Of a stretch of 64,000 nt of DNA, positions 1,757-64,000 are shown piece after piece (position 1 is the stretch's first letter; each line of letters starts with the position of its first letter). The position numbers and the translations under genes were made by a program. Below the pieces are notes generated by a model that worked only from the letters and a program-made list of their open reading frames with translations, was not told the DNA's origin and made no database searches. Source of the stretch: Cymodocea nodosa (Eukaryota > Streptophyta > Magnoliopsida > Alismatales > Cymodoceaceae); NCBI GenBank assembly GCA_036874045.1, contig CM072345.1, positions 3,993,501 through 4,057,500 on the forward strand, in the 5' to 3' direction.

Positions 1757-1788
1757 ACCAAAAGTCTTAATTTCAACATGATTTGTAG

Positions 1789-21682: not shown

Positions 21683-21693
21683 CTACAAAACAA

Positions 21694-23736
21694 TCAAAAA
21701 GAGATTTTATCTCTTGGAACCCATTTTTGAGTGGGTCCAAGAATTTTAGAGAGAGTCATATCAAAATAATCCATATTTTTAGACTTCAACTTATCTATTT
21801 TCTGATAATTATTTTTGCGTTTCTTTCTCTTAGTGTTATAATTATCAGAACATTTATCTCCATGTAAACCAAAGTTGAAATTTTCGTTTCTGACATTATT
21901 TGATTTCCAATATCCGATATTCTTTAAATATGAAGAAAATTGATCAAGAATATTAAAATTCTCAAATGTCTTAGCTTGATTCTTCTGAAGATTTCTTTTG
22001 AAATTCTTGCATCGTGTGCTATCATTTATATGCTGCATTTCATCAATTTGCACATATTTTTCTCCCTTTTTGATTACACACGGAATAGTTTTTCTCTTAC
22101 TATTCTTAATACTGGAAATAAAGACATTATTTTTAGCAGTACCATCATGCAATATATAATTTTCAGAAGATGCATCGTGTAAACCAATACCATGTTTTTC
22201 TACATTTGATATTTTACTATTGAGTTCATTTGTTAAAGTTTGACTATTATTCCATTTACTTAATATAGCCTTTTGATCGCAAACATTAATCTTTAACACA
22301 TCAATTTTTGAATTTAAATTAGTAATAGTCAGTTCCAGTTTTTCAATTTCACATATCATTTTCTTCTTATCAGCAATTAAATTTTCACAATCAGCATGCA
22401 ATTATCTTTCTATAGCAGTGAACTTTAAAATTTCCTGTGCATGCCTTTGATTTTCTTCTTTAAATTTATTTAAAGTAGAGTTCAAAAAATCAATCTTATT
22501 TTCAGATTCATCTAGTATTTTCCTAGTGTCCTTTCTTTCTATTTTGACTTTCTTATATTTTCTGGCCAATCTATTGTATTCAACAAGTAATCCATCAAAA
22601 CTATCAAAATTAGCGTTTTGATCAAAGGATACCTCACTAGATTTTGCCATAAAGCATACATTTGCCAGATTTTCTTTTGAACCTGATGTTGATGAGGATT
22701 CATTGTCTGATGTTGAATCCTTTGTTTCTTCACTTTGTGAAGCTGAAGAGTCATCCCATGTCACTTTAAGCGCCCTTCTCTTTCTGATTTTCTTATTTCT
22801 GAAATTCCTCCTCGAATTCTTCTTATCTTTGTTGAAAGGACAATCAGTTTGAAAGTAACCTGGCCTGTTGCACTTGTAGCATATACTTTTGTCTTTCATG
22901 TATGACTTCTTCTCCATATCTCTAGATGTCTTTGCTAACCTGAAGTTCCTGCATTTCTTCAACAGATTTCTAAATTTTCTGGTCAACAACAATAAATCAT
23001 CGTTAGAATCACTAGTGACTTCTGAGACTTTATCAGCCTCAAAAGCCAAATCCCTTCTAGGATTTTTCCCTTTTGGATCTAAATATTGTACTTCATAGGC
23101 TATTAGATTTCCTATGAGATCATCGAGAGTATATGTATTTAAGTCTTTGGACTCTTCAATAGATGTTGTCTTTTGAGCCCAAATTTTAGTTAAAGATCAA
23201 AGGATCTTTCTTACCAAGTCTTTTTCCTCGAATTTCTTGCCTAAAGATTTTAATGAATTTACAATCTCAAGAAAATAGGAAAACATGTCAAAGATACATT
23301 CATTTTCGTGCATTTTAAAAAGCTCATATTTATGTACTAATATATTGATCTTAGATTCCTTGACCTGATTAGTACCTTCGTTGGCAACTTCTAATGCATG
23401 CCATATCTCATATGCAATTTGATATGCAGAAACTTTATTAAATTGATCATGAGATAAAGCACAAAACAAGATGTTTAAACCTTTAGCATTCAGTGTCATT
23501 CGCTCCTTTTCATCAAAAGTCCAAGTATCATATGGAGTCGTAACTAACACTATAGGATTGCTAATTATATGCCATAATTTGAAATCGATTGACTGAAAAA
23601 ATACTTTCATCCTATATTTCCAATAGCTATAATTACTACCTTCAAACATAGGAGAACGATTAGTAGTCTGTCCTTCAGTCATAACTAAGATTTCAGAATT
23701 ATCCATTTTAAATAGATGATCCAAAGTAAATGACAA
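21694..23736 (-). pseudogene. gag: CopC-1 gag
   Basis: Minus strand; usual start is MDNSEILVMTEGQ at 23706, with an in-frame ATG at 23736. Capsid region as in other Sireviruses (ILFCALSHDQFNKVSAY, WHALEVANEGTNQVK), then zinc knuckle CYKCNRPGYFQTDC, where the expected His is Tyr. Then acidic Ser-rich stretch and a long coiled coil (about 22530-22250), ending WVPRDKISF. Two nonsense codons (TGA after LVRKIL near 23196, TAA after FTAIER near 22402), no frameshift. Donor-like GAG|GTATCC at 22635-22627 and acceptor TTTTGTAG|G ending 21683 would, if used, fuse gag in frame to protease and remove the coiled coil and the gag stop. Confidence 0.93.
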
Positions 23737-30252: not shown

Positions 30253-30257
30253 CTAGA

Positions 30258-31821
30258 TGTTGAGTATTTTTGTTTTGATGATGTATGCTGAATGAATATA
30301 ATCATATTTGCTCAATTACTATTGCTTGTGAAAAGAAATTAAAATCATCAATTAATACAGAAAAAGCTTATTGATATAAATACTTGTCTGTATTGGATCT
30401 GAAGTTAATATCTAGTCGTTTCATTGCATTAATTTCTCATTTAGCTAAACGTTAAGTTAACGTGTGTTTTCATTGAAAAGCATGATATGTTTTAATGTTA
30501 TATCTTTTGTATCATGAACAGTGCACGTTTAGACAACTCGTTAAGTTAGAGGCTTAAAGGTTAAAATAGGTCACGTGATAACTCGTTAAGTTAGTGAGTA
30601 AAAGAAGAGACGAACTCGTTAAGTTAGTGTTATACACGTGGTGAAATTATAAGTTACGAATGTTGTATTGTATCACATGAGGTGCACATGTTTAACTCGT
30701 TAAGTTAACATAACTAAACGCATTAAGTTGCTATATTGAACACTAAGGCAGCACGTTAGGTTAGCGTTATAAACTTAAGTTGTTATTTTTGCACGTGGAA
30801 AAATTCTTATTATAAAAACATTTGTTTATTACTAGTTCGTTGAGTTATCATGACACAACGAAAATGGTTCGTTGAGTTATCATAACACAACGGAGATGGT
30901 TCGTTGAGATAGCATAACACCACAGACTTAGTTCGTTGAGTTAGCTACAGTACTTGTCACGTGAAATGGCACATGAGGAACTCGTTAAGTTAGAAACGTT
31001 AAGTTATATATATACTTGTGTTACTCATTTAGTTAACATTAAAGTAACGACTTCTTATTACACTGATGAAAAACTTTTGGACGAGAAAGTTTATTTTCAA
31101 GAAATTTTTCAGAGATCCAAGATTGATGATTAAAGAAAATTCGAAATATAAATGTGGGTTAGAACGTGTGTGTTTCGATGAAGGAAAAAGAAAAGACGTG
31201 GAGAAGTGGAAAACTGGTAGTGGTTAAACGTGAAGGATATGCATGAAATGAAGATACAGTATAAAAGGCATAGAATTCTCGTTGATCAATTTATCCTTGC
31301 ACACCAAAAAGAAAAATCTTTTCAAAGATCAAACCATCCCTGCACACCAAAAGAAAAATCTTTTTCAAAGATCAAAAACACCTCTTCGGGAAAAATCTCT
31401 CAAGTGGAAGAAAGTTCAGTGAAGCATAAAAAGGTAAGATTTTCGTCACTGAAGATTTGAAGTATCAGAAGAAAGCAAATTCGGTGAAGCATGAAAAGAC
31501 AAGATTTTCGTCACTAAAGAATTGTTGAAGAAGAAAAGGAAGAAAGATCTCAAACAGGGAGAAAAGTTTTAAATTCCACAAATTAGTTTTCTCTGTTTGT
31601 AGTTATGAAATTATTTAGATGATACATTGTATCGAAATATAATTGCATCTACAATTTTTGAGGAGAATTGAATTGTATATTGTAATTGAAACCTTGAATA
31701 AAAATGATTTTATGAAAACAATGTCTCGACTTGCTTTTGAGTTTTAAAGTTTCAATTATATTTTAGAAAATATTAAAAATACACAATTCACCCCCCTCTT
31801 GTGTAGTCATACGATCCTACA
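30258..31821 (+). repeat. CopB-1 5' LTR
   Basis: TGTTGAGTATTTTTG to ACGATCCTACA. The first 800 bases hold at least ten CGTTAAGTTA or CGTTGAGTTA motifs, often paired, with CACGTG boxes between them (for example 30577, 30637, 30793, 30958). TATAAAAGG lies at 31260-31268, followed by two minisatellite units. Confidence 0.95.
31260..31268 (+). promoter_or_regulatory. CopB-1 5' LTR TATA box
   Basis: TATAAAAGG, conserved in CopB LTRs at 4076, 40633, 54970 (minus) and 63287 (minus). A second AT-rich candidate, TTATATATATACTTG near 31003, lies about 255 bases upstream. Confidence 0.7.
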
Positions 31822-31836
31822 AGTGGTATCAGAGCT
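31822..31836 (+). other. CopB-1 primer-binding site
   Basis: AGTGGTATCAGAGCT follows the LTR end; the core TGGTATCAGAGC is intact. Confidence 0.92.
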
Positions 31837-32021
31837 TTGTGAATAATCTTTAATATAAAATCGATACCAACTTATTTAATATCATTGCTTATTCTACCTT
31901 CCTTGTTTTTAAACGAAAATTAATATCTGAGCATACGTTTAACTCTATTAATTTAGGGCTCAAGTTGTATTAAAGTTTTTAGACTATTTAAAATCAAATA
32001 GGTTGAAAAATCTAAGGTAAA

Positions 32022-34269
32022 ATGGCTACTGGAAATGGTAATTTTTCTTTATATGAAGGCCAAAATCTTAATCGTCCTCCTTTATTTGATGGAATACATT
32101 TTAAATATTGGAAATATAGGATGACTGTTTTTCTTCAAAGTATAAATCATAAATTGTGGTTCATGATTTCTAAACCATATACTCCGTTAACTACTCCTTA
32201 TAATACTTGGACAATTACTGAAAAACAAAATGAAACTCTAAATGCTAAAGGCTTAAATATTTTATTTTGTGCATTAAGTTATGAACAGTTCAGTAAAGTG
32301 TCGGCATATAAATCTGCTTATGAGGTGTGGCATGCATTAGAAGTTTCACATGAAGGTACTTCTCAAGTTAAAGAGACAAAAATAAACATGTTGATTCATA
32401 AGTATGAACTCTTTAAGATGCATGAAGACAAAAATATTTCTGAGATGTTTTCCAGATTTCTTGATATCATAAACTCTTTAAAATGTTTAGGAAAGAATTT
32501 TAAACAGAAGGATTTGGTGAGGAAAATTCTCAGATCCCTAAGTTCTAAATGGTCTCAGAAAGTAACATCAATTGAGGAATCACGAGATTTAAATGTTTAT
32601 ACTATGAATGAACTTATAGGTAATTTAACAGCTTATGAAGTTCAATTAAATGAATCACTAAGTCACAACAAACTAAAAATGAAGAAAGAAATAGCCTTCA
32701 AAATTATTTCAAATTCTGATATATCTACTGATTCTGACGAGGATTTGATTTTGCTTACTAGGAAATTCAAGAAAGCATGGAAAGCTAGGAAACAGCAAAG
32801 GAACAAAAATGATAAACCCTCAACGTCAAAATCATTGAATGACAAGAATTCTTCATCCAGAAAGTATGTATGATACAATTGTAAGAAACCTAGACATCTT
32901 TCTCCAGATTGTCCTATGAGGAAAAATGAAAAGCAAAGTAGGACAAATCAGAAGAAGACGGCTCAGAAAACTCAGAAAAAGTTTTACAAGAAAAAGGCTT
33001 TGAAGGTCACTTGGGATGACACGTCTAAAGAGTTTGAATCTAAGGAATCAGCATCAAAATCTTCACATTCAGAAGGAGAACAAGAGTTAGAAGACGTTGC
33101 TCATGTGTGCTTCATGGCAGATGAGTCTGAGGTAATATCTGATCCTGAAAGTCATTCAGATTTCAACTTTGATAAATTATTATGTGCTTATCATGCATTA
33201 TTACAAAAACTTAAAGTATGTAAACTGGAAAATAAGAATATTAGAAAATCTTCATCCATTAAGGAAGAAGAAAATTGTTTCCTGTCTACTACTTTAGAAA
33301 AGTTTAAATGTGATAATGAAAATCATGCTAGAGATTTGCAAAAATTTAGATTTAATGAATGTATCTTGCATGAACAAATACAGAATATAAATGCTGAAAA
33401 ATTAAAGATAGAATCTGAAAATGAAATGTTGAGAAACAATATAAATGAACTTGAATTAGAGATAGAAAAATTAAAACTAAGAGAGCAAGATTTAAATTCT
33501 ACCTTTGAGAAATGGAATTTAAGTCAAACTAAGTTAGACAAACTAACTAGTACCCCTGTGGTGTCTTATAAATTTGGCTTAGGATTTGATTATCCTGAAT
33601 CTCAAGCCAATAAAGTATTTATTAGTTGCACTTCAAGTAAATCTAAGACTAAAATTCCTTTCATTATGAAACAAGGTAATAAATATGTAGAAGTAGGTAC
33701 TTCAAGGGATGAATCATGCAATAATAATATAAATCAATGTGATTTGTCAAATTGTACTTCTAACATGACTATAAATGTTTCTAAAAATCTTGTTTCTTAT
33801 TCTGGAAATTCAATTTCTAATGTTTCTAAAATTTCAGACAATTGTAGTAAACTGAAAATTCAAAAACCTGAGCATGTAATTCAATACACTGGTATTAGAC
33901 CAATTACTCATTCTGCATGTGATAAAACAAAAAATTCTTGTGCAGAAAAAGATTTTGTATGTACAAAAAATGTTAATACAAGCACAAAATCTTGGTATGA
34001 ACTTACTGAAATGTATAAGCATCACCAAAATAAATTAACATCTGATAAAATATGTTTGGTCTTGATTATACTACATCTAAAAACAAAAGAATGATTGCAA
34101 AAGCAATAATGCTATATGTGAGTATGAAGCTAATGATAAATCAATAGTACTTACAACTAATAAGAATATAAATGATAATGTTAAACTATTTTTAAACAAA
34201 AAGAAGAAATATGTGTTTAATGAACTTGGTCCTCAACAACATTGGGTACCAAGAAAAAGTTTTTCTTAA
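32022..34269 (+). pseudogene. gag: CopB-1 gag
   Basis: Starts MATGNGNFSLYEGQNLNRPP. Capsid region (YWKYRMTVFLQSI, ILFCALSYEQFSKVSAYKS, WHALEVSHEGTSQVK), then zinc knuckle whose first Cys codon is TGA (32871-32873), leaving YNCKKPRHLSPDC. The frame continues through an acidic Ser-rich region and a long coiled coil (about 33180-33540) to 34094, where a frameshift interrupts it. In the shifted frame the usual Gag end HWVPRKSFS is followed by TAA at 34267-34269. A candidate intron, GAG|GTAATA at 33129-33137 to TTGCAG|G ending 34281, covers the coiled coil and this stop. Confidence 0.93.
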
Positions 34270-34281
34270 TTTGTGTTGCAG
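33132..34281 (+). other. Candidate GT-AG intron in CopB-1 gag-pol
   Basis: GTAATATCTG at the left end, and a T-rich TTTTTCTTAATTTGTGTTGCAG-like acceptor at the right. CopB-2 lacks exactly this segment (junction between 61414 and 61413), joining ...KSE to EETTSKW in frame. Length 1150 bases; phase 0. GAGG occurs at both ends, so deletion between short direct repeats is an alternative. Confidence 0.6.
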
Positions 34282-34518
34282 GAGGAAACAACATCAAAAT
34301 GGATATTGGATAGTGGAGCGTCAAGTCACATGACCGGACAAAAAAGTCTATTACAAAATTTTACAAATACCATGAAAGGAAGTGTAACATTTGGAAACAA
34401 AAGCAAAGATAAAATCATAGGTATGGGCAATGTTCAAATAACTCCTACTTGTGTTATTTCGAATGTACTATATGTAGAAAACCTAGGTTTTAATTTGCTG
34501 AGTGTCATAAATGGATAA
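34282..34518 (+). pseudogene. pol: CopB-1 protease, N-terminal part
   Basis: EETTSKWILDSGASSHM carries the D-S-G active site; it continues to ENLGFNLLSV as in CopC-1 and then stops matching. About one protease domain's first half remains. The next sequence (IFLNQEKYADK) belongs to the RT C-terminus, so the integrase and most of RT are deleted at about 34505. A one-base insertion at the junction relative to CopB-2 shifts the frame. Confidence 0.9.
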
Positions 34519-35328
34519 AGGTATATTTTTAAATCAGGAAAAATATGCAGATAAAATGCTTAAGAAATTTAATTTTAATAATACAAGGATTCGAGGAACT
34601 CCTATGAGTACTACCTTAAAGTTAGATATTGATGACATAGGAAAATCTATAGATAAAAAAAATACAGAAGTATGATTGGTTCTTTACTTTATTTGGCTGC
34701 TAGTAGACCTGATATTATGTTTGTTGTGTGTGTTTGTGCTAGATTTCAATCTAATCCTAAAGAATCATACTTAATTGCAGTTAAAAGAATATTTAGATAT
34801 ATACAAGGAACTAAAAATTTCAGACTGTATTATTCTAAGAATAGTTCAATAGATCTTATAGGATATACTTATGTTGATTATGCAGGATCTAAATCTGATA
34901 GAAAGAGTACCAGTGGCATATGTCAATTATTGGGAAATAATTTGGTGTCATGGTTTAGTAAAAAGCGAAACTGTGTAGCACTTTCTACTATAGAAGCTGA
35001 ATATGTTGCTGCTACACTGTGTTGCACTCAAATTCTGTGGATAAGGCAAACTTTAGAAGATTTTGGATTATCTTATAATACAACTGAGATTTATTGTGAC
35101 AGTAGTTCTGCAATAAATCTTTCTAAAAATCCTGTATTACATTCAAGAGCAAAGCATATGGAGGTTAGACATCATTTTCTAAGAGATAACGTAATTAAAA
35201 GAAAAATTAAATTAGAATTTATGTCTAGTAAAAATCAATTAGCTGATATATTTACAAAACCTCTAGACGAAAATACATTTTGCAACATTAGATTAAATTT
35301 AGGTATTTGTAGGCTATGTGATGTGTAA
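34519..35328 (+). pseudogene. pol: CopB-1 RT C-terminus and RNase H
   Basis: From QEKYADKMLKKFNFNN, the C-terminal RT connection, then after a frameshift near 34665 an open frame of 218 codons: [57 protein letters not shown], ending ICRLCDV. RNase H acidic residues (D, E, D) are all present, so this domain is intact while its polymerase is missing. Confidence 0.92.
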
Positions 35329-36884
35329 AATGCTTGAACTCCACATAAAAAGATAAATATTATTGATGATGTTGTTCACCTCATAGATATTATATACTTA
35401 TTATAAATATCTAAAGTAATATCTAAACTGCTGCTTAAGATACAATGTATTTATTGTAAAATCATAGTAGTATCTTATTGATTTTAAGTAGTTTATCAAT
35501 TTTAATAGTTTTTACGATTTTAAGTGGAAGTGTAAATGAAAAACATTAAATACTTCTGACATTCTGAAATTTTGATTAAATGTTTTCTTTGAATCAAGGA
35601 AAATGTATATGATCATGCATAAATTTGACTTAATTGATTAAACTTGTAGAATAAGTTATATGTAACTCATCTTAAACTGTTAATCAAAAGTATAAGCTTA
35701 TTGAAACTGATTCATATTCTCAGTACAATCGTAGAAGTAAAAATTGTATGAGATTTGTGTTTTATTGCATCTGTATTAAATGGAATACATATATACTATG
35801 CTTAAAATGAAAAGTGCTTACAAAGTAAAAATCTTTGAGAGTTTATTGATCAGTTTGATCACGAGCCTTTTGTACTTGAGCAAATAGGTATGTAAGGATT
35901 GCTGTCCTAAAAAAGGATTCTTTAAATCTAGCAACCTAAGGCCTGATCAGATCTGGGATTGTTGACTGAAAGCTCATTACACGAGTACATTAGAAAGCTC
36001 TTGTATGATTCAAGCTTTTCAAACTAACTTTTAAAGAAAATTATCAATATTTACTGTTTTGAAAAGAAAAAGTTGTTTCATTAATTACAGATATCTTTGA
36101 ATCGCATATAGTTTATACCAATATGACTACTGATTTATTGAATCAACATTAGTACTTTTGAAAATGTTTATTTGAGATACATTCTTTTATTCTCCTTGAA
36201 TTAATCGAATTGAGTTCAAAGTTGTGTTTTGATTCATATATAGTAGGAATTGATTCTGGAAATCATTTTTGATGATCTCAGGATAACGGAAGTCTCTGAA
36301 AAGAAAATGTAAAAGTATAGTTATACTTAACATCTATTGTCACTACAAGTATATTTTGTATTTTGATTGAATATATTTGAAGTATATTTTTAAGGGGAGG
36401 ATTAACAATGTCGAAAACAGATTAATATAATTTAGAATACAAATCTTAGTTAATCTGAATTAATGTCCTCTTAAAATCTTGATGAAATAATTTAAAAAGA
36501 CAAATAAACTATTTTAGATTCAAAAGACAAAATGTTCAAATAGTTTACAATGTTCTCAAGATAATGTTAAGTTTAGCATGTGTTGTTTTCAGAACGTTTC
36601 AGTTGGAAGCATCCAAAAATTGGTGTACTAACTAGACGTTATGTTAGATAAGGTAATGTGTAAAACTGCCTCTAGACAGCATTTTACTCGTTAGGTTAGT
36701 TAACTCAATGAGTTATACTTGAATATTTCAGGTACCTTGATTGAATAAGCTTTATTCAATATTTATTTAATTTCTAAACCCGACTTCTCTTCACGTTGAG
36801 TTATACGCCTAAAAACCCTATTTAAACACTTATTACACGAGGACTTAGGTTATTTGTAAACTTTGTCAAGAAAATCATTCCCGC
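35329..36884 (+). other. CopB-1 spacer between RNase H and third ORF
   Basis: No ORF. A purine tract TTTTTAAGGGGAGGATTAAC lies near 36388. Close to the third ORF there are ACTCGTTAGGTTAGTTAAC motifs (36685-36720) and CCCTATTTAAACACTTATTA (36818-36837), a possible core promoter about 50-70 bases ahead of the start codon. The same order occurs in CopB-3 and CopB-2 (58781-60367). Confidence 0.6.
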
Positions 36885-39134
36885 TTGTTGCTGTTACAAC
36901 CTGCGACGATGGTCTCCAAGTTCTACAAAGGTCGTGGCAAAGGAAAAGGCAAAAGCAGAAGAGATGCAAAAGGAAAAGAAATAGAGAATGATGAAGTTCC
37001 ACGTACTTGGTTCAAGAAAATATTTCGAGTGGACAAAAGGTTAGAAGAACTTTATAGAGATTACTTCTTTTCTCAGGATATATTAGATGAAGTTAGACAA
37101 GAACTTCAACATATTGATGCAAGTATTACATACATGGGTATTCGAAGTAAATATGATGGAGAATACAGAATGAAATGTGCTGAGATTGCATTTTTGGAAC
37201 AGTATGCAAAATATTTGGAAAAAGGTGTAGGTTCATCAAATAGAACTCCTCAAACTCCTATAAATGGTACAAGACTACATGCATTTGAGGAAGAGCATGA
37301 ATCAGCTATCCCTACTCCTTTATATTCAAAACAAGTAGAATCAGATATTGCTGTAGACAAAACAAAAGTTGACAGTTTTCGAAAGGCCGTTGCAATAGAA
37401 AGTACCTTAGAAGAATTAAAGCAGAAAACTTTTATAGAGCAATTTGAAAAGAAAACAGCAATACTTGAAAAGGAGAAACAAAAATGTTATAGAAGAAGGA
37501 AAGTTAGAAAAATTATGTCTAAGGAAACAAAGTCTATTGAAAAAGGAAAACTTGTACCTTATTGTGCATCTGATAAACTCATCAGTTCCGAACACACTGA
37601 AACTGATGAAGATAATGAGACTTTATTTTCCCTTGGTAGAAAACTTGAGAAGAAATCCAAGTCAAATATGAGCTCAAGTTTTTCTATTAGTACAAGTCCT
37701 GATGATGTAGAAATTGACAAATCAGAGAATCAGGCACTTGACATTGAACAAGTTATTCTAACTATAATTGACAATGTTGAAGCAGTAACTAGTTCAAAGG
37801 CTGAATTGTCTAGAGTAGCAGATATTGAAATTGTTAAGACTCCAGAAGAGCTAAAAGTTAACTAGCCTTCTACGGAATCTATAGAAGCAAAGTCTGAGAA
37901 TTCACAGCATGAATCAATGGCATTATCTGTTGAACAAAATGAACAATTACAGATAGATACACCGGTTGTAGAATTTGTGGAAAAATTGTACTCTGAACAT
38001 TCTAGAGAGACTGAACAGATGAATGTTGAGCATATTGACAATGTTCCTAACACTGTTGAAGCTGAAGAATCAAGCTTACCTGAGCAGCTTCAAGATAATA
38101 TTTTGGAAGAGGTACAACATGACATTCATTTTGAAGAAGAGGTTCCTGAAGATAAATTAAACTCTAAATCACAGCTTCAGGTATCACCTTCTTTGTGTAC
38201 AATATTAAAAATTCAAAGTAATGCAATTCATTTTAGATCTGAAGAAGCATTGCAAATATACAATAATCTGATTACATGTCCGATTCTGCATGCTCGTCCA
38301 ATAAAATTCAAAAATTTGATGGAAATAAGAAATCTGTTTGAGTTTCAAGGCCTCATTAAATTCTTGCCAGTAGGAACGAAATGGAAGCAATACACAGAGC
38401 TTATTGTAGCTTTTTATAGCAATCTGGTCAAGAATGGAAATTTTCTGAAAACTCAAATAAATGAACAGGAGTTTATATTTTCTCTTGAGTTAATTTTTGA
38501 AGTTTTAGGATTAAAGAATGAAGGTGTTGTTGTTACCAACAGATTTGACATAATAAGACAACTAGAATGGAACATTCAGTCTTTATCAAAAATTCCAGAT
38601 GTATATTCTGAAATGAGATTAATGGAAAATCTGAATGCAGAGGCAAGGTTTATTGCAAATATATTGCATGCAAATTTATTTCAAAGAGTTGGACACAATA
38701 TGGAAGTCAGCAGAAGTTGTTTATATGTAACTTATAGCTTGCTAAATAGAATTCAAATCAATTGGTTTGATGTTTTCACTTCTCAACTACAGCATATGAG
38801 TTCAAAGTTATTTTATGGTGATGCTGTATGTAGACTCATTGCAAGCCAATTGAATTTATCCGACTAGCCCTCTGAAACTAAAGGCATGAGAGCATTTAGT
38901 GTCAAAGATTTGCAAAAATTTCAGGCCATGCATAAACCTCAACGACAACAACAGCAACAACCTGATACAGACCATATACAACAACAACAACAAAGTTATT
39001 CAGTTCAAGCAGAACAGCAAACCCAGCTACCTCCTGACTTAGATGCAGTGCTTAACGACATCAGAAATGATATTAGGCATCTAGGAGATAAAATATGTAA
39101 TGCTATAAGTGATATACTTAGGAGGGGTCGATAA
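36885..39134 (+). pseudogene. CopB-1 third ORF (env-position ORF)
   Basis: One frame of 749 sense or nonsense codons with only two stops: TAG 37863-37865 (N-stop-P, shared with CopB-2) and TAG 38865-38867 (W position). N-terminus is basic (YKGRGKGKGKSRRDAKGK), then a helical region (DEVRQELQHIDASITYMGIR), an acidic Ser-rich middle, the conserved block (RPIKFKNLMEIRNLFEFQG, VLGLKNEGVVV, ARFIANILHANLFQRV), poly-Gln (QRQQQQQP) and the tail IRNDIRHLGDKICNAISDIL. No signal peptide or membrane segment is evident, so an envelope role is not supported. A 14-codon in-frame deletion (after IEKGK) distinguishes it from CopB-2. Confidence 0.9.
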
Positions 39135-39308
39135 CTGTTTTTGTTTGTTTCTGAATACAAAATGTAATGTTTGTATTACTTGTTTGATTCATTGAACAAT
39201 ACATTTTTCTGTAAATGTGTTCAATTATTATTCTTGTTTACAGAAATCGTTGTTGTAATTCTCTTATATACATATATATATTCTCTGTAATTATCTTTTT
39301 GATTAATG

Positions 39309-39325
39309 ACAAAAAGGGGGAGAAA
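39309..39325 (+). other. Upstream polypurine tract, CopB-1
   Basis: ACAAAAAGGGGGAGAAA, about 305 bases before the 3' LTR; the sequence before it (TTGATTAATG) is also like that before the terminal tract. Confidence 0.75.
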
Positions 39326-39616
39326 TATTATAGAAAGATGACTATGATCTTAATTGCATATATATATTATAAAAGGATATGCTATTTAAATGGTTATTGT
39401 AATCTGATAGATGATAATTAGAAAACTGATACTTATATAATTATTGACATCTGAGAGTTTTAGTTCTGAGAGGTAAAATTTACACAAACAATAGAAATAA
39501 GCTTAAGTGAACTTAAGTCAACAAACAAGTTTGTTGAATTAAAAGTTAACCCAACGAAGGTGCTTTGTTGAGTTAAACATATTTCATAATTGATTTAATA
39601 TGGTTTTGTCATCATC

Positions 39617-39630
39617 AAAAAGGGGGAGAT
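39617..39630 (+). other. Polypurine tract, CopB-1
   Basis: AAAAAGGGGGAGAT, directly before the 3' LTR. Confidence 0.92.
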
Positions 39631-41200
39631 TGTTGAGTATTTTTGTTTTGATGATGTGTGCTGAATGAAAATAATCATATTTGCTCAATTACTATATCTT
39701 GTGAAAAGAAATTAAAATCATCAATTAATACAGAAAAAGCTTACTGATATAAATACTTGTCTGTATTGGATCTGAAGTTAATATCTAGTCATTTCGTTGC
39801 ATTAATTTCTCATTTAGCTAAACGTTAAGTTAACGTGTGTTTTTATTGAAAAGCATGATATGTTTTAATGTTATATCTTCTGTATCATGAACAGTGCACG
39901 TTTAGACAACTCGTTAAGTTAGAGGCTTAAAGGTTAAAATAGGTCACATGATAACTCGTTAAGTTAGTGAGTAAAAGAAGAGACGAACTCGTTAAGTTAG
40001 TGTTATACACGTGGTGAAATTATAAGTTACGAATGTTGTATTGTATCACGTGTGGTGCACATGTTTAATTCGTTAAGTTAACAGAACTAAACGCGTTGAG
40101 TTACTATATTAAACACTAAGGCAACGCGTTAGGTTAGCGTTATAAACTTATGTTGTTATTTTTGCACGTGGAAAAATTCTTATTATAAAAATAATTGTTT
40201 ATTACTGGTTCGTTGAGTTATCATAACACAACGGAAATGATTCGTTGAGTTATCATAACATAACGGAGATGGTTCGTTGAGATAGCATAACACCACAGAC
40301 TTAGTTCATTGAGTTAGCTACAGTACTTGTCACGTGAAATGGCACATGAGGAACTCGTTAAGTTAGAAACGTTAAGTTATATATATACTTGTGTTACTCG
40401 TTTAGTTAACATTAAAGTAATGACTTCTTATTACACTGATGAAAAACTTTTGGACGAGAAAGTTTATTTTCAGGAAATTTTTCAGAGATCCAGGACTGAT
40501 GATTAAAGAAAGTTCAAAATATAAACGTGAGTTAGAACGTGTGTGTTTCGATGAAGGAAAAAGAATAGATGTGGAGAAGTGGAAAACTAGTAGTGGTTAA
40601 ACGTGAAGAATATGCATGAAATGAAGATATAGTATAAAAGGCATAGAATTCTCGTTGATCAATTTATCCTTGCACACCAAAAAGAAAAATCTTTTCAAGG
40701 ATCAAACCATCCTTGCACACCAAAAGAAAAATCTTTTTCAGGGATCAAAAATACCTCTTCGGGAAAAATCTCTCAAGTGGAAGAAAGTTCAGTGAAGCAT
40801 AAAAAGGTAAGATTTTCGTCACTGAAGATTTGAAGTATCAGAAGAAAGCAAATTCGGTGAAGCATGAAAAGACAAGATATTCGTCACTGAAGAATTGCTG
40901 AAGAAGAAAAAGAAGAAGAAGAAATATCTCAAACAGGGAGAAAAGTTTTAAATTCCGCAAATTAGTTTTCTCTGTTTGTAGTTATGAAATTGTTTAGATG
41001 ATACATGGTATCGAAATATAATTGCATCTACAATTTCTGAGGAGAATTGAATTGTATATTGTAATTGAAACCTTGAATAGAAATGATTTTATGAAAATAA
41101 TGTCTCGACTTATTTTTGAGTTTTAAAGTTTTAATTATATTTCAGAAAATATTAAAAATACACAATTCACCCCCTTCTTATGTAGCCATACGATCCTACA
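39631..41200 (+). repeat. CopB-1 3' LTR
   Basis: TGTTGAGTATTTTTG to ACGATCCTACA, closely matching 30258-31821 with scattered single-base differences. TATAAAAG at 40633-40640; two minisatellite units; purine repeat near 40900. Confidence 0.95.
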
Positions 41201-41205
41201 CTAGA

Positions 41206-54406: not shown

Positions 54407-56013
54407 TGTAGGATTGTATGGCTACACAAGAGGGGAGTGAATTGTGTATTTTTAATATTTTCTGAAATATAATTGAAACTTTAAAACTCAAAAACAAGTC
54501 GAGACATTGTTTTCATAAAATCATTTTTATTCAAGGTTTCAATTACAATATACAATTCAATTCTCCTCAGAAATTGTAGATGCAATTATATTTCGATACC
54601 ATGTATCATCTAAACAATTTCATAACTACAAACAGAGAAAACTAATTTGCGGAATTTAAAACTTTTCTCCCTGTTTGAGATCTTTCTTCTTCTTTTTCTT
54701 CTTCAGCAATTCTTCAGTGACGAATATCTTGTCTTTTCATGCTTCACCGAATTTGCTTTCTTCTGATACTTCAAATATTTAGTGACAAAAATCTTACCTT
54801 TTTATGCTTCACTGAACTTTCTTCCACTTGAGAGATTTTTCCCGAAGAGGTGTTTTTGATCCTTGAAAAAGATTTTTCTTTTGGTGTGCAGGGATGGTTT
54901 GATCCTTGAAAAGATTTTTCTTTTTGTGCGCAAGGATAAATTGATCAATGAGAATTCTATGCCTTTTATACTGTATCTTCATTTCATGCATATCCTTCAC
55001 ATTTAACCACTACTAGTTTTCCACTTCTTCACGTCTTTTCATTTTACTTCATCGAAACACACGTTCTAACCCACGTTTATATTTCGAATATTCTTTAATC
55101 ATCAGTCCTAGATCTCTAAAAAATTTCCTGAAAATAAACTTTCTCGTCCAAAAGTTTTTCATCAGTATAATAAGAAGTCATTACTTTAATGTTAACTAAA
55201 CGAGTAACACAAGTATATATATAACTTAATGTTTCTAACTTAACGAGTTCCTCATGTGCTATTTCACGTGACAAGTACTGTAGCTAACTCAACGAACTAA
55301 GTGCATGGTGTTATGCTATCTCAACGAACCATCTCTGTTGTGTTATGATAACTCAACGAACCATTTCCGTTGTGTTATGATAACTCAACGAACCAGTAAT
55401 AAACAAATGTTTTTATAATAAGAACTTTACCACGTGCAAAAATAACAACTTAAGTTTATAACGCTAACCAAACGTGTTGCCTTAGTGTTCAATATTGCAA
55501 CTCAATGCGTTTAGTTATGTTAACTTAACAAGTTAAACATATGCACCTCACGTGATACAATACAACATTCGTAACTTATAATTTCACCACGTGTATAACA
55601 CTAACTTAACGAGTTCGTCTCTTCTTTTACTCACTAACTTAATGAGTTATCATGTAACCTATTTTAACCTTTAAGCCTCTAACTTAACAAGTTCTCACGT
55701 GACCTCTATACAAACAAAACTCTAACTTAACGAGTTGTCTAAATGTGCACTGTTCATGATACAGAAGATATAACATTAAAACATATCATGCTTTTCAATA
55801 AAAACACACGTTAACTTAATGTTTAGGTAAATGAGAAATTAATGCAACGAAACAACTAGATATTAACTTCAGATCCAATACAGACAAGTATTTATATCAG
55901 TAAGCTTTTTCTATATTAATTGATGATTTTAATTTCTTTTCACAAGCAATAGTAATTGAGCAAATATGATTATTTTCATTCAGCACACATCATCAAAACA
56001 AAAATACTCAACA
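54407..56013 (-). repeat. CopB-2 3' LTR
   Basis: Minus strand TGTTGAGTATTTTTG to CAATCCTACA, 1.6 kb. TATAAAAGGC at 54970-54961; two minisatellite units at about 54860-54950; motif array at 55190-55830. Confidence 0.95.
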
Positions 56014-56027
56014 ATCTCCCCCTTTTT
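56014..56027 (-). other. Polypurine tract, CopB-2
   Basis: Minus strand AAAAAGGGGGAGAT directly before the 3' LTR. A second copy, AAAAAGGGGGAGAAAT, lies at 56336-56321. Confidence 0.9.
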
Positions 56028-56509
56028 GATGATGACAAAACCATATTAAATCAATTATGAAATATGTTTAACTCAACAAAGCACCTTCGTTGGGTTAACT
56101 TTTAATTCAACAAACTTGTTTGTTGACTTAAGTTCACTTAAGCTTATTTCTATTGTTTGTGTAAATTTTACCTCTCAGAAATAAAACTCTCAAATGTCAA
56201 TAATTATATAAGTATCAGTTTTCTAATTATCATCTGTCAGATTACAATAACCATTTAAATAGCATCTCCTTTTATAATATATATATGCAATTAAGATCAT
56301 AATCATCTTTTTATAATATTTCTCCCCCTTTTTGTCATTAATCAAAAAGATAATTACAGAGAATATATATATGTATATAAGAGAATTACAACAACGATTT
56401 CTGTAAACAAGAATAATAATTGAACACATTTACAGAAAAATGTATTGTTCAATGAATCAAACAAGTAATACAAACATTACATTTTGTATTCAGAAACAAA
56501 CAAAAACAG

Positions 56510-58780
56510 TTATCGACCTCTCCTAAGTATATCACTTATAGCATTACATATTTTATCTCCTAGATGCCTAATATCATTTCTGATGTCGTTAAGCACTGCA
56601 TCTAAGTCAGGAGGTAGCAGGGTTTGCTGTTCTGCTTGAACTGAATAACTTTGTTGTTGTTGTTGTTGTATATAGTCTGTATTAGGTTGTTGTTGTTGTT
56701 GTCGTTGAGGTTTTTGCATGGCTTGGAATTTTTGCAAATCTTTGACACTAAATGCTCTCATGCCCTTAGTTTCAGAGGGCCAGTCAGATAAAGTCAATTG
56801 GCTTGCAAGGATTCTACATACAGCATCACCATAAAATAACTTTGAACTCATATGCTGTAATTGAGACATAAAAACATCAAACCAATTTATTTGAAGTCTA
56901 TTCAGCAGGCCATAAGTTGCGTATAAACAGCTTCTGCTGACTTCCAAATTGTGTCCAACTCTCTGAAATAAATTTGCATGCAATATATTTGCAATAAATC
57001 TTGCCTCTGCATTCAGATTTTCCACTAATCTCATTTCAGAATATAAATCTGGAATTTTTGATAAAGACCAAATGTTCCATTCCAGTTGTCTTATTATGTC
57101 AAATCTATTGGTAACAACAACACCTTCATTCTTTAATCCTAAAACTTCAAAAATTAACTCAGGAGACAATATAAACTCCTGTTCATTTATTTGAGTTTTC
57201 AGAAAATTTCCATTCTTGACCAGATTACTATAAAAAGCTGCAATAAGCTCCGTGTATTGCTTCCATTTCATTCCTACTGGCAAGAATTTAATGAGGCCTT
57301 GAAACTCAAACAGATCTCTTATTTCCATCAAATTTCTGAATTTTATTGGACGAGCATGCAGAATCTGACATGTAATGAGATTATTGTATTTCTACAATAC
57401 TTCTTGAGATCTAAAATGAATTGCATTACCTTGAATTTTTAATATTGTACACAAAGAAGGTGATACCTCAAGCCGTGATTCAGAGTTTAATTCATCTTTA
57501 GGAACCTCTTCTTCAAAATGAATGTCATGTTGTTCCTCTTCCAAAATATTATCTTGAAGCTGCTTAGGTAAGCTTGATTCTTCAGCTTCAACAGTGTTAG
57601 GAACATTGTCAATATGCTCAACATTCATCTATTCAGTTTCTATAGAATGTTTAGAGTACAATTTTTCCACAAATTCTACAGCCGGTGTATCTGTCTGTAA
57701 TTGTTCATTTTGTTCAACAGATAATTCCATTGATTCATGCTGTGAATTCTCAGACTCTACTTCTATAGATTTTGAAGAAGGCTAGTTAACTTTTAGCTCT
57801 TCTAGAGTCTTAACAATTTCAATATCTGCTACTCTAGACAATTCAGCCTTTGAACTAGTTACTGCTTCAACATTGTCAACTATATTTGCAATAACTTGTT
57901 CAATGTCAGGTGCCTGATGCTCTGATTTGTCAATTTCTACATCATCAGGACTTGTACTAATAGAAAAACTTGAGCTCATATTTGACTTGGATTTCTTCTC
58001 AAGTTTTCTAGCAAGGGAAAATAAAGTCTCATTATCTTCATCAGTTTTAGTGTGTTCAGAATTGATGAGTTTATCAGATGCACAATAAGGTACAATGTCT
58101 AGACATACGTTGTCCTTTGGAAATAAATTTTCATCTGATTTTCCTTTTTCAATAGACTTTGTTTCCTTAGACATAATTTTTCTGACTTTCCTTCTTTTAT
58201 AACATTTCTGTTTCTCCTTTTCAAGTATTGTTGTTTTCTTTTCAAATTGCTCCATAAAAGTTTTCTGCTTTAATTCTTCTAAGGCACTTTCTATTGCAAC
58301 GGCCTTTCGAAGACTGTCAACTTTTGTTTTGTCTACAGCAATATCTGATTCTACTTGTTTTGAATATAAAGGAGTAGGGATAGCTGATTCATGCTCTTCC
58401 TTAAATGCATGTAGTCTTGTACCGTTTATAGGAGTTTGAGGAGTTCTATTTGATGAACCTACACCTTTTTCCAAATATTTTGCATACTGTTCCAAAAATG
58501 CAATCTCAGCACATTTCATTTTGTATTCTCTATCATATTTACTTCGAATACCCATGTATGTAATACTTGCATCAGTATGTTGAAGTTCTTGTCTAATTTC
58601 ATCTAATATATTCTGAGAAAAGAAGTAATCTCTATAAAGTTCTTCTAACCTTTTGTCCACTCGAAATATTTTCTTGAACCAAGTACGTGGAACTTCATCA
58701 TTCTATATTTCTTTTCCTTTTGCATCTCTTCTGCTTTTGCCTTTTCCTCTGCCACGACCTTTGTAGAACTTGGAGACCAT
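56510..58780 (-). pseudogene. CopB-2 third ORF (env-position ORF)
   Basis: ATG at 58780 (MVSKFYKGRG) by comparison with CopB-1. 757 codons in one frame with four internal TAG codons (58705, 57784, 57631, 57394; first base on minus strand) and no frameshift. Order of regions as in CopB-1: basic N-terminus, DEIRQELQHTDASITYMGIR helix, acidic middle, conserved block with VLGLKNEGVVV and ARFIANILHANLFQRV, poly-Gln (QRQQQQQP and IQQQQQQS) and tail IRNDIRHLGDKICNAISDIL. The TAG at 57784 (N-stop-P) is at the same codon as in CopB-1. Role unknown. Confidence 0.9.
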
Positions 58781-60367
58781 CGTCGCAGGTTGTTATAGCA
58801 ACAAGCGGGAAAGATTTTCTTGACAAAGTTTACAAATAACCTAAGTCCCCATGTAATAAGTGTTTAAATAGGGTTTTTAGGCATATAACTCAACGTGAAG
58901 AGAAGTCGGGTTTAGAAATAAAATAAATATTGAATAAAGTTTTTTCAATCAAGGTACCTGAAATATTCAAGTATAACTCATTGAGTTAACTAACCAAACG
59001 AGTAAAACGCTGTCTAGAGGTAGTTTTACACGTTACCTTATCTAATATAACGTCTAGTTAGTACACTTAAACAAGTTTCGGATGCTTCCAACTAAAACGT
59101 TCCGAAAACAACACACATGCTAAACTTAACATAATCTTGAGAACATTTCAAACTATTTGAACATTTTGTCCTTTGAATCTAAAATAGTTTGTTTGTCTTT
59201 TTAAATTATTTCATCAAGATTTTAAGAGGACAGTAATTCAGATTAACTAAGATTTGTATTTTAAATTATATTAATCTGTTTTTGACATTTTTAATGCTCC
59301 CCCTACAAATATACTTCAAATATATTCAATCAAAATACAAAATATACTTGTAGTGACAATAGTTGTTAAGTATAACTATACTTTTACATTTTCTTTTCAG
59401 AGACTTCCGTTATCCTGACATCATCAAAAATGATTTCCAGAATCAATTCCTACTGTATATGAATCAAAACACAACTTTGAACTCAATTCGATTAATTCAA
59501 GCAGAATAAAAGAATGTATCTCAAATAAACATTTTCAAAAGTACTAATGTTGATTCAATAAATCAGTAGTCATATTGGTATAAACTATATGCGATTCAAA
59601 GATATCTGTAATTAACGAAACAACTTTTTCTTTTCAAAATAGTAAATATTGATAATTTTCTTTAAAAGTTAGTTTGAAAAGTTTGAATCATATAAGAGCT
59701 TTCTAATGTACCCGTGTAATGAGCTTTCAGTCAACAATCCCAGATCTGATCAGGACCTTAGGTTGCCAGATTTAAAGAATCCTTTTTCAGGACAAAAATC
59801 CTTTCATACCTATCTGCTCAAGTACAAAAGGCTCGTGATCAAACTAATCAATAAACTCTAAAAGATTTTTACTTTGTAAGCACTTTTCATTTTAAGCACA
59901 GTATATATGTATTCCATTAATACAGATGCAATAAAACACAAATCTCATACAATTTTTACTTCTATGATTGTACTGAAAATATGAATCAGTTTCAATAAGC
60001 TTATACTTTTGATTAAGAGTTTAAGATGAGTTACATATAACTTATTCTACAAGTTTAATCAATTAAGTCAAATTTTTGCATGATCATATACATTTTCCTT
60101 GATTCAAAGAAAACATTTAATCAAAATTTCAGAATGTCAAAAGTATTTAATGTTTTTCATTTACACTTCCACTTAAAATCGTAAAAACTATTAAAATTGA
60201 TAAACTACTTAAAATCAATAAGATACTACTATGATTTTACAATAAATACATAGTATCTTAAGCAGCAGTTTAGATATTACTTTAGATATTTATAATAAGT
60301 ATATAATATCTATGAGGTGAACAACATCATCAATAATATTTATCTTTTTATGTGGAGTTCAAGCATT
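58781..60367 (-). other. CopB-2 spacer between RNase H and third ORF
   Basis: Closely matches 35329-36884 in reverse; no ORF. The purine tract equivalent to that near 36388 reads TTGTAGGGGGAGCATTAA on the minus strand (near 59294-59311). Confidence 0.6.
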
Positions 60368-61038
60368 TTACACATCACATAGCCTACAAATACCTAAATT
60401 TAATCTAATGTTGCAAAATGTATTTTCGTCTAGAGGTTTTGTAAATATATCAGCTAATTGATTTTTACTAGACATAAATTCTAATTTAATTTTTCTTTTA
60501 ATTACGTTATCTCTTAGAAAATGATGTCTAACCTCTATATGTTTTGCTCTTGAATGTAATACAAGATTTTTGGAAAGATTTATTGCAGAACTACTGTCAC
60601 AATAAATCTCAGTTGTATCATAAGATAATCCCAAATCTTCTAAAGTTTGCCTTATCCACAGAATCTGAGTGCAACACAGTGCAGCAGCAACATATTCAGC
60701 TTCTATAGTAGAAAGTGCTACACAGTTTTGCTTTTTACTAAACCATCACACCAAATTATTTCCCAATAATTGACATGTGCCACTGCTAGTCTTTCTATTA
60801 CATTTAGATCTGCATAATCAGCATCAGTATATCCTATAAGATCTATTAAGCTATCCTTAGAATAATACAGTCTGAAATTTTTAGTTCCTTGTATATATCT
60901 AAATATTCTTTTAACTGCAATTAAGTGTGATTCTTTAGGATTAGATTGAAATCTAGCACAAACACACACAGCAAACATAATATCAGGTCTACTAGCAGTC
61001 AAATAAAGTAAAGAACCAATCATACTTCTGTATTTTCT
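60368..61038 (-). pseudogene. pol: CopB-2 RNase H
   Basis: Minus strand [17 protein letters not shown] then GYTDADYAD, where a frameshift occurs (SKSDRKS expected; DLNVIERL read). The original frame resumes with TIEAEY and YCDSSSAINLSKN through to ICRLCDV. A TAA at a Gln position separates it from the protease-RT piece. Better preserved active-site start (DADYA) than in CopB-1, but shifted. Confidence 0.9.
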
Positions 61039-62523
61039 TTAATCTATAGATTTTCCTATGTCATCAATATCTAACTTTAAAGTAGTACTCATAGGAGTTC
61101 GTCGAATCCTTGCATTATTAAAATTAAATTTCTTAAGCATTTCATCTGCATATTTTTCCTGATTTAAAAATATACTTTTATCTTTTATGACACTCAGCAA
61201 ATTAAATCCTAGGTTTTCTACATATAGTACATTCGAAATAATACAAGTAGGAGTTATTTGAACATTGCCCATACCTATGATTTTATCTTTGCTTTTGTTT
61301 CCAAATGTTACACTTCTTTTCATGGTATTTGTAAAATTTTGTAATAGACTTTTTTGTCCGATCATGTGACTTGACACTCCACTGTCCAAGATCCATTTTG
61401 ATGTTGTTTCCTCCTCAGACTTATCTGCCATGAAGCACACATGAGCAACGTCTTCTAACTCCTGTTCTCCTTCTGAATGTGAAGATTTTGATGCTGATTC
61501 CTCAAATTCAGACTCTTCAGACGTGTCATCCCAAGTGACCTTCAAAGCCTTTTTCTTGTAAAACTTTTTCTGAGTTTTCAGAGCTGTCTTCTTCTAATTT
61601 GTCCTACTTTGCTTTTCATTTTTCCTCATAGGACAATCTGGAGAAAGATGTCCAGGTTTCTTACAATTGTAACATACATACTTTCTAGATGAAGAATTCT
61701 TGTCATTCAATGATTTTGACGTTGAGGGTTTATCATTTTTGTTCCTTTGCTGTTTCCTAACTTTCCATGCTTTCTTGAATTTCCAAGTCAGCAAAATCAA
61801 ATCCTCGTCAGAATCAGTAGATATATCAGAATCTGAAATAATTTCGAAGGTTATTTCTTTCTTCATTTTTAGTTTGTTGTGACTCAGTGATTCATTTAAT
61901 TGAACTTCATAAGCTGTTAAATTTCCTATAAGTTCATTCATAGTATAAATATTTAAATCTCGTGATTCCTCAATTGATGTTACTTTCTAAGACCATTTAG
62001 AACTTAGGGATCTGAGAATTTTCCTCACCAAATCCTTCTGTTCAAAATTCTTTCCTAAACATTTTAAAGAGTTTATGATATCAAGAAATCTAGAAAACAT
62101 CTCAGCAATATTTTCGTCTTCATGCATCTTAAAGAGTTCATACTTATGAATCAACATATCTATTTTTGTCTCTTTAACTTGAGAAGTACCTTCATGTGAA
62201 ACTTCTAATGCATGCCACACCTCATAAGTAGATTTATATGCCGACACTTTACTGAAATGTTCATAACTCAATGCACAAAATAAAATATTTAAGCCCTTAG
62301 CATTCAAAGTTTCATTTTCTTTTTCAGTAATTGTCCAAGTATTATAAGGAGTAGTTAACGGAGTATATGGTTTAGAAATCATGAACCACAATTTGTGATC
62401 TATACTTTGAAGAAAAACAGTCATCCTATATTTCCAATATTCAAAATGTATTCCATCAAATAAAGGAGGACGATTAAGATTTTGGCCTTCATATAAAGAA
62501 AAATTACCATTTCCAGTAGCCAT
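61039..62523 (-). pseudogene. gag: CopB-2 gag-protease-RT fusion frame
   Basis: From ATG 62523 (MATGNGNFSLYEGQN) to 61039 there is one reading frame, 495 codons, with nonsense codons only at 61989 (KWS-stop) and near 61594 (SRTN-stop), both TAG at Gln positions. Regions: capsid; intact zinc knuckle CYNCKKPGHLSPDC; acidic region ending CFMADKSE; then directly protease EETTSKWILDSGVSSHM; ENLGFNLLSV; then RT C-terminus IFLNQEKYADEML. The join between KSE and EETT lies at 61414/61413 and removes precisely the segment 33132-34281 of CopB-1. The coiled coil and gag stop are therefore absent. Confidence 0.92.
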
Positions 62524-62708
62524 TTTACCTTAGATTTTTCAACCTATTTGATTTTAAACAGTCTAAAAACTTTAAACCAACTTGAGCTTTAAATCAATAG
62601 AGTTAAACGTATGCTTAGATATTAATTTCTGTTTAAAAACAAGGAAGGTAGAATAAGCAATGATATTAAATAAGTTGGTATCAATTTTATATCAAAGATT
62701 ATTAACAA

Positions 62709-62723
62709 AGCTCTGATACCACT
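62709..62723 (-). other. CopB-2 primer-binding site
   Basis: Minus strand AGTGGTATCAGAGCT after the 5' LTR end, identical to CopB-1. Confidence 0.92.
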
Positions 62724-64000
62724 TGTAGGATCGTATGGCTACACAGGAGAGGGGTGAATTGTGTATTTTTAATATTTACTGAAATATAATTGAAACTTTA
62801 AAACTCAAAAACAAGTCGAGACATTGTTTTCATAAAATCATTTTTATTCAAGGTTTCAATTACAATATACAATTCAATTCTCCTTAGAAATTGTAGATGC
62901 AATTATATTTTGATACCATGTATCATCTAAACAATTTCATAACTACAAATAGAGAAAACTAATTTGCGGAATTTAAAACTTTTCTCCCTGTTTGAGATCT
63001 TTCTTCTTCTTTTTCTTCTTCAGCAATTCTTCAGTGACGAATATCTTGTCTTTTCATGCTTCACCGAATTTGCTTTCTTCTGATACTTGAAATCTTTAGT
63101 GACAAAAATCTTACCTTTTTATGCTTCACTGAACTTTCTTCCACTTGAGAGATTTTTCCCGAAGAGGTGTTTTTGATCCCTGAAAAAGATTTTTCTTTTG
63201 GTGTGCAGGGATGGTTTGATCCTTGAAAAGATTTTTCTTTTTGTGTGCAAGGATAAATTGATCAATGAGAATTCTATGCCTTTTATACTGTATCTTCATT
63301 TCATACATATCCTTCACATTTAACCACTACCAGTTTTCCACTTCTCCACGTCTTTTCTTTTTCCTTCATCGAAACACACGTTCTAACCCACATTTATATT
63401 TCGAATTTTCTTTAATCATTAGTCTTGGATCTCTGAAAAATTTCCTGAAAATAAACTTTCTCGTCCAAAAGTTTTTCGTTAGTGTAATAAGAAGTCGTTA
63501 CTTTAATGTTAACTAAACGAGTAACACAAGTATATATATAACTTAACGTTTCTAACTTAACGAATTCCTCATGTGCTATTTCACCTGACAAGTACTGTAG
63601 CTAACTCAACGAACTAAGTTTGTGGTGTTATGCTATCTCAACAAACCATCTCTGTTGTGTTATGATAACTCAACGAACCATTTCCGTTGTGTTATGATAA
63701 CTCAACGAACCAATAATAAACAAATGTTTTTATAATAAGAATTTTACCACGTACAAAAATAACAACTTAAGTTTATAACGCTAACCTAACGCATTGCCTT
63801 AGTGTTCAATATAGCAACTCAACGCGTTTAGTTATGTTAACTTAACGAGTTAAACATGTACGCCTCACGTGATACAATACAACATTCGTAACTTATAACT
63901 TCACCACGTGTATAACACTAACTTAACGAGTTCATCTCTTCTTTTACTCACTAACTTAACGAGTTATCACGTGACCTATTTTAACCTTTAAGCATCTAAC
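62724..64000 (-). repeat. CopB-2 5' LTR, left part outside window
   Basis: Minus strand ends ACGATCCTACA at 62724. Contains TATAAAAGGC (63287-63278), two minisatellite units and the motif array from 63500 on; the remaining 300 or so bases of its start lie past the window. Confidence 0.93.

Follow-up and report, generated by a model that had tools for sequence, protein, structure and literature searches.

The copia-type retrotransposons CopA, CopB and CopC of Cymodocea nodosa probably carry a facultative intron at the end of gag: its retention would lead to a long Gag, its removal to a Gag-Pol polyprotein without the Gag tail. We give this explanation, taken as a whole and drawn from genomic sequence, a probability of about 0.8. 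A spliceosomal intron would extend from downstream of the gag zinc knuckle to just before the protease, with unspliced RNA encoding a long Gag that stops 7-12 nt before the intron end; spliced RNA would lack this stop as well as the tail, and we infer that it expresses a single, tail-less Gag-Pol polyprotein. Splicing efficiency would set the ratio of Gag to Pol, a hairpin situated just 5' of the acceptor may tune splicing, and spliced RNA would occasionally be packaged, reverse transcribed and integrated to give intron-less copies. The genome searched comprises 374.6 Mb in 28 contigs; the window, i.e. the whole stretch of 64,000 nt that was analysed, is G000:C17:3993501-4057500.

The segment absent from CopB-2 and its counterparts in CopA and CopC

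CopB-1 and CopB-2 are both copia-type elements and share ~95% identity (Table 1). CopB-2 is nested inside a CopC-like gag and displays both LTRs and the 5-bp duplication. In a self-comparison of the window by BLASTN, the two elements aligned in two collinear blocks (30545-33132 to 64000-61413 and 34280-41200 to 61415-54407), from which it follows that a single large segment, and only this one, is absent from CopB-2. Its borders in CopB-1 read TCTGAG/GTAATA at 33132 and TTGTGTTGCAG/GAGGAA at 34281/34282, with the junction of CopB-2 at 61414/61413 reading TCTGAG/GAGGAA. The border sequences and the alignment confirm what the preliminary description had stated, namely that CopB-2 lacks exactly positions 33132-34281 of CopB-1 with GT...AG ends. 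The join was also found to be phase 0, placing gag in frame with protease as described, and the same arrangement holds for CopA-1 (1224-1788) and CopC-1 (22632-21683). The gag stop had been placed about 12 nt before the acceptor: this is correct for the 1152-nt copies, where it is a TAA, although the tail of CopB-1 itself (1150 nt) is frameshifted.

Table 1. Features of the elements in the window; a slash marks a predicted splice boundary.
Feature	Position	Strand	Remark
CopB-1, copia-type LTR element with putative intron	30258..41200	+	self-BLASTN
CopB-1 LTRs	30258-31821 and about 39630-41200		
CopB-1 5-bp duplication CTAGA	30253-30257 and 41201-41205		
CopB-1 PBS TGGTATCAGAGC	3' of 5' LTR		
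CopB-1 PPT AAAAAGGGGGAGA	5' of 3' LTR		
CopB-1 gag N-terminal part	32022..32873	+	Pfam Retrotran_gag_2, E 2.7e-29
CopB putative intron, encodes Gag C-terminal tail	33132..34281	+	1150 nt in CopB-1, 1152 in most copies
CopB 5' splice site GAG/GTAATA (predicted)	33132..33137	+	GT in 28/28 copies read
Inverted repeat at LGP..WVP codons	34225..34253	+	predicted stem-loop, -10.4 kcal/mol
CopB gag stop TAA	34267..34269	+	12 nt from intron end, frame of 1152-nt copies
CopB 3' splice site TTTGTGTTGCAG/G (predicted)	34270..34281	+	rank 1 among 113 AGs
CopB-1 protease coding start (EETTSKWILDSGASSHM)	34282..34332	+	
CopB-2, without intron	54407..64000	-	extends beyond window to 64287
CopB-2 putative exon-exon junction	61413..61414	-	among the 76 genome matches
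CopB-2 5-bp duplication	54402-54406 and 64288-64292		
CopA-1 putative intron GAG/GTATGC ... TTTGTAG/GAT	1224..1788	+	565 nt
CopC-1 putative intron GAG/GTATCC ... TTTTGTAG/GTA	21683..22632	-	950 nt

The elements exhibit the features of Ty1/copia, with a copia-type gag and a protease region 5' of the integrase. Pfam domains comprise Retrotran_gag_2 in CopB, Pol_BBD, gag_pre-integrs and rve in CopA-1, and gag_pre-integrs, rve and SH3_retrovirus in CopC-1; a protease motif lies upstream; zinc-knuckle motifs and a long C-terminal coding tail are present in Gag, and one PPT was seen in CopB-1. A protein database search with the natural junction ORF of CopB-2 returned 19 candidates, none at E 0.001, and a scan of IMG/VR with the CopC integrase piece returned no relative. 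The window holds a further copia element on the plus strand (46393-47715, with gag_pre-integrs, rve and SH3 domains), for which a motif search gave no gag/protease border.

Microhomology allows the CopB gap to be placed in four equivalent ways (3 nt), one of which is GT-AG, and would amount to 3 nt in CopA-1 and 5 nt in CopC-1. These 3-5 nt count against an intron, and the initial caution that GAGG occurs at both CopB breakpoints was a fair one; it is outweighed, however, by the exact spacing of the genomic junctions (76/76 and 42/42) and the scatter of intron state described below. For CopB, deletions were drawn at random, each end lying no more than 150 nt away: 242/63702 were GT-AG in some placement, 80 were also in frame and 4/63702 resembled G/GTA...YAG. 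The same scheme gave 286/64218 GT-AG deletions for CopA-1 (108 also in frame) and 181/64110 for CopC-1 (66 also in frame).

Exact junctions and the recurrent intron-less state of CopB

The whole genome was searched for CopB junctions with the pattern TGCTTCATGGCAGAN{7,37}TCAAAATGGAT, which allows 31 spacings between exact flanks: 76 matches were obtained (37 forward, 39 reverse, CopB-2 included), and all 76 show the exact-splice spacing. This count is a lower bound, since exact flanks were demanded; some of the matches may be duplicates. For CopC, with the exact-splice spacing of 12 recorded ahead of the search and 0-30 nt allowed, all 42 matches (21 and 21 on the two strands) had spacing 12, and the reversed-pattern controls for both families gave no match genome-wide. 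Copies elsewhere that are joined at this precise position are thus present in both families, and no variable end points occurred within 7-37 nt (CopB) or 0-30 nt (CopC); deletions with variable ends near these sites are ruled out by the exact spacing. The splice joins the ORFs in frame in the 20 intron-less CopB loci that were read, with 16 of them open for 30 codons on either side. Gag and protease are likewise joined in frame in each of the 10 CopC loci read of the 42 (94-97% and 95-99% identity to CopC-1 over 100 nt per side), three of which have a later stop in the protease piece.

Three pairs of intron-less CopB junctions lie in inverted orientation ~8-11 kb apart (C6:6639693/6647542, C6:6728246/6736556 and C15:11367995/11378788, all in G000). 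The two members of the first pair have in common a variant found in none else of the 76, those of the third a variant found in one other, which suggests that such pairs may be inverted duplications or assembly palindromes.

Intron-bearing CopB copies were read as the best 28 of 40 scored matches, out of 2836 first-look candidates. The donor GT is intact in 28/28 and the acceptor AG in 24/28, the remaining four (AA in three, GG in one) speaking against the intron; where AG is present, the acceptor triplet is CAG in 19 copies and TAG in five. The length is 1152 nt in 20/26 copies measured by exact strings and in 22/28 overall (L004 counted as 1150). A pN/pS of 1.0 among CopB copies says nothing on selection. 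In the 20 intron copies of equal length, G-to-A and C-to-T changes account for 97/205 minor alleles, a share such as the decay of methylated cytosines predicts. Two copies, L002 and L011, turn into one and the same other sequence ~13 nt past the acceptor; as these sequences read, this switch is a common second rearrangement. From L033 (minus strand, ~7980) to L032 (minus strand, ~8830), a CopA-type gag tail is broken shortly after its donor by an apparent further element, the LTR ends of which are CopB-like.

The exon flanks of 21 intron-less copies (20 of the 76 plus CopB-2) and of 28 copies that carry the intron (25 drawn from L001-L028, together with L040, L042 and L049) were placed in a tree, from which L002 and L011 (different downstream flank) and L020 (long branch) had been dropped. 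Intron state changes 13 times in this tree, with at least four changes forced by well-supported branches; including L020 gave 14 changes, five of them forced. A single intron-less clade was recovered in 0/200 bootstrap trees (bootstrap not fully settled, 0.987) and was rejected by the AU test (p 5.9e-92). With shuffled labels ~16 changes were obtained and 38/500 shuffles were as low for the intron-less rows: intron state is therefore scattered, with weak clustering at most. Flanking variation led to the same picture: for 92/100 common SNPs (26/29 transversions), each allele occurs both with and without the intron. None of the 100 passed 0.0005 for linkage to intron state (lowest p 0.028), and the 15 that lie at most 60 nt from the junction are likewise unlinked. 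The intron-less state of CopB arose more than once.

These results weigh on two readings in which splicing need not recur. One ancestral microhomology deletion, later amplified as an intron-less subfamily, would fit the microhomology at the CopB (3 nt) and CopC (5 nt) junctions, the sharing of one junction by many copies and such weak clustering as the shuffles allow, but is opposed by the rejection of one CopB clade, by SNPs unlinked even close to the junction and by CopC, whose matches show the same exact spacing at a different GT-AG pair; we consider it very improbable. In its simple form, a single founder for CopB is ruled out by the AU test, the tree scatter and the SNP non-linkage. Template switching is common in retroelements. 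A founder in each family, be it a deletion or one reverse-transcribed spliced RNA, that was spread by recombination between co-packaged RNAs would scatter intron state over the tree as observed. Given the scatter and the unlinked SNPs, such a founder would need very frequent recombination; the 15 nearby SNPs speak against it, exact GT-AG founders would still be needed in two families, and we regard this route, too, as scarcely credible. Exact junction spacing in combination with a scattered, unlinked intron state instead indicates that splicing followed by reverse transcription probably produced intron-less copies repeatedly. The proposal that CopB-2 itself stems from a reverse-transcribed spliced RNA is supported by the exact spacing, the tree and the linkage results, with splicing as the putative source of its junction.

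Splice signals, reading frames and the proposed source of Pol

Splice sites were scored with general, unfitted plant weights from 350 nt 5' of the donor to 300 nt 3' of the acceptor in one copy per family. The acceptor ranked first of 105 AGs in CopA-1, of 113 in CopB-1 and of 112 in CopC-1, and the donor, GAG/GTA in each, ranked 1 of 56, 3 of 85 and 4 of 58, respectively. On these weights, the GT...AG ends and the context of donor and acceptor are those predicted for a U2-type intron. Candidate branch points (TTAAT, TTGAT), picked out by eye against the consensus, share bases with the gag stop of both CopB and CopC. The U enrichment of the intron is weak, being present relative to the upstream exon and slight to absent relative to the downstream one, and counts against an intron.

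The main rival accepts real splicing and reverse transcription of the spliced RNA, but has Pol made from unspliced RNA by recoding (readthrough, bypass or internal entry), with splicing yielding by-products or defective genomes. We hold this to be unlikely, though it has several observations on its side: earlier work on Sireviruses has invoked internal entry or bypass, a short hairpin is predicted at the gag/pol boundary, and the mostly 1152-nt intron of CopB (0 mod 3) leaves gag and pol mostly in one frame with a TAA between them, so that stop readthrough is possible there. The frames of the other families differ, as far as can be judged from two CopA and three CopC copies that are all partly decayed: the intron is 565 nt in CopA-1 and 562 nt in L047 (both 1 mod 3), and 950 nt in CopC-1, 950 nt in L029/L030 and 946 nt in L036 (2, 2 and 1 mod 3). 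Thus the relation of gag and pol in unspliced RNA varies by family, whereas the splice unites them in phase 0 and in frame every time; one and the same recoding event would not suit all families. Further points against recoding are the position of the top-scoring acceptor (one copy per family), between the gag stop and the protease, and the identity of the supposed UAG. A UAG in the pol frame follows the gag terminator in CopA-1, CopC-1 and 5/28 CopB copies, and 19/28 CopB copies have CAG instead; the acceptor triplet is TAG in CopA-1 and CopC-1, CAG in L032 and L047, and either in CopB. This alternation fits a 3' splice site and not an obligatory stop codon. The gag stop lies 12 nt from the intron end in CopB, 11 nt in CopC-1 and 7 nt in CopA-1 and L047.

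The CopB hairpin is located 29-57 nt from the intron end. Short hairpins were predicted at the gag/pol boundary with raw energies of -9.1 to -12.5 kcal/mol in 4/5 copies folded (CopA-1: -3.1), and folds of 121-131 nt across the boundary were no better than shuffles (z -0.2 to -0.8). In the Gag tail, an excess of third-position differences was observed between CopA-1 and L047 (47, 37, 73) and between CopB and CopC (146, 119, 175); comparison of CopB or CopC with the L047 tail was flat by codon position (93, 95, 95; 96, 94, 98).

Relation to known elements

According to a 2025 review (PMC12786077), introns are generally absent from plant LTR elements, Ogre and EVD being singled out as exceptions; two strategies are given, namely frameshifting or a short Gag isoform. 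In Ogre, a Ty3/gypsy element of the Tat lineage, removal of a partly spliced intron brings the GAG-PROT and RT-RH-INT ORFs together (Neumann 2019, PMC6317226). ORFs are joined by intron removal in both cases, and the splice described here does so in one copy per family and in the 10 CopC and 20 CopB loci read; Ogre, however, belongs to the other superfamily and has its intron between protease and RT, whereas the putative intron here lies inside gag, holds the Gag tail and ends before the protease. Within copia, BARE1 (CAG/GTAT donor; PMC3735527) and EVD are described as alternatively spliced near the gag/protease border, and in Drosophila copia splicing to a subgenomic RNA sets Gag versus Pol (PMC3735527). 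According to these accounts, unspliced RNA of BARE1/EVD serves for Gag-Pol and spliced RNA for Gag only, and in Drosophila copia splicing cuts out pol to leave Gag; here the polarity appears to be opposite, as splicing would remove the Gag tail and join Gag to Pol. The truncation by frameshift or stop after the splice that marks short Gag in BARE/EVD was not found, the splice leading in phase 0 into protease, and, set against BARE1/EVD, exact intron-less copies are integrated in the genome. Reports on sunflower and triticale likewise concern short Gag isoforms. For Bianca (Ty1/copia), two ORFs with a mean gap of 172 bp and a special expression strategy are noted (PMC6317226); this short gap is unlike the intron here, and splicing is not mentioned in that description. 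Searches of open-access PMC turned up no report of a Gag-to-Pol joining splice in copia elements.

By their anatomy, CopA, CopB and CopC appear to be Sirevirus-like copia elements. The original paper on Sirevirus recoding is reportedly that of Gao in 2003. In the SIRE lineage, pol is described in the +1 frame or behind stops, and the zinc-knuckle gag with its long extension, a hairpin at the gag end and a UAG between the gag terminator and pol are reported, with internal entry or bypass cited for Pol (Bousios 2010, PMC2829016); these accounts make no mention of a splice from gag to pol. The Gag of Sireviruses is further described to contain a coiled coil 3' of the zinc knuckle and to bind LC8 proteins (Bousios 2010, PMC2829016). 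The elements studied here resemble them in the predicted boundary hairpin, with loops of 5-8 nt versus 4 in Sireviruses; their Gag has zinc-knuckle motifs and a long tail, and the gag terminator is followed by UAG in some copies and by CAG in others. The reported conserved UAG after the Sirevirus gag terminator would fit a 3' splice site, which here is TAG or CAG.

Sireviruses are described as accounting for much of the copia population of plants (PMC2829016), and the expression of their Pol is described as an open puzzle ('Puzzles awaiting resolution abound'). The proposed splice offers a possible and directly testable answer to this gag-pol puzzle, with reversed logic. We lean towards extending it to Sirevirus-type copia elements generally: Pol may be expressed through splicing of the Gag tail, with the conserved UAG and the hairpin, so far described as signals for recoding, belonging to a regulated 3' splice site, such that a single choice made on the RNA would decide between long Gag and tail-less Gag-Pol. 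The intron-less copies would constitute a genomic fossil record of the splice.
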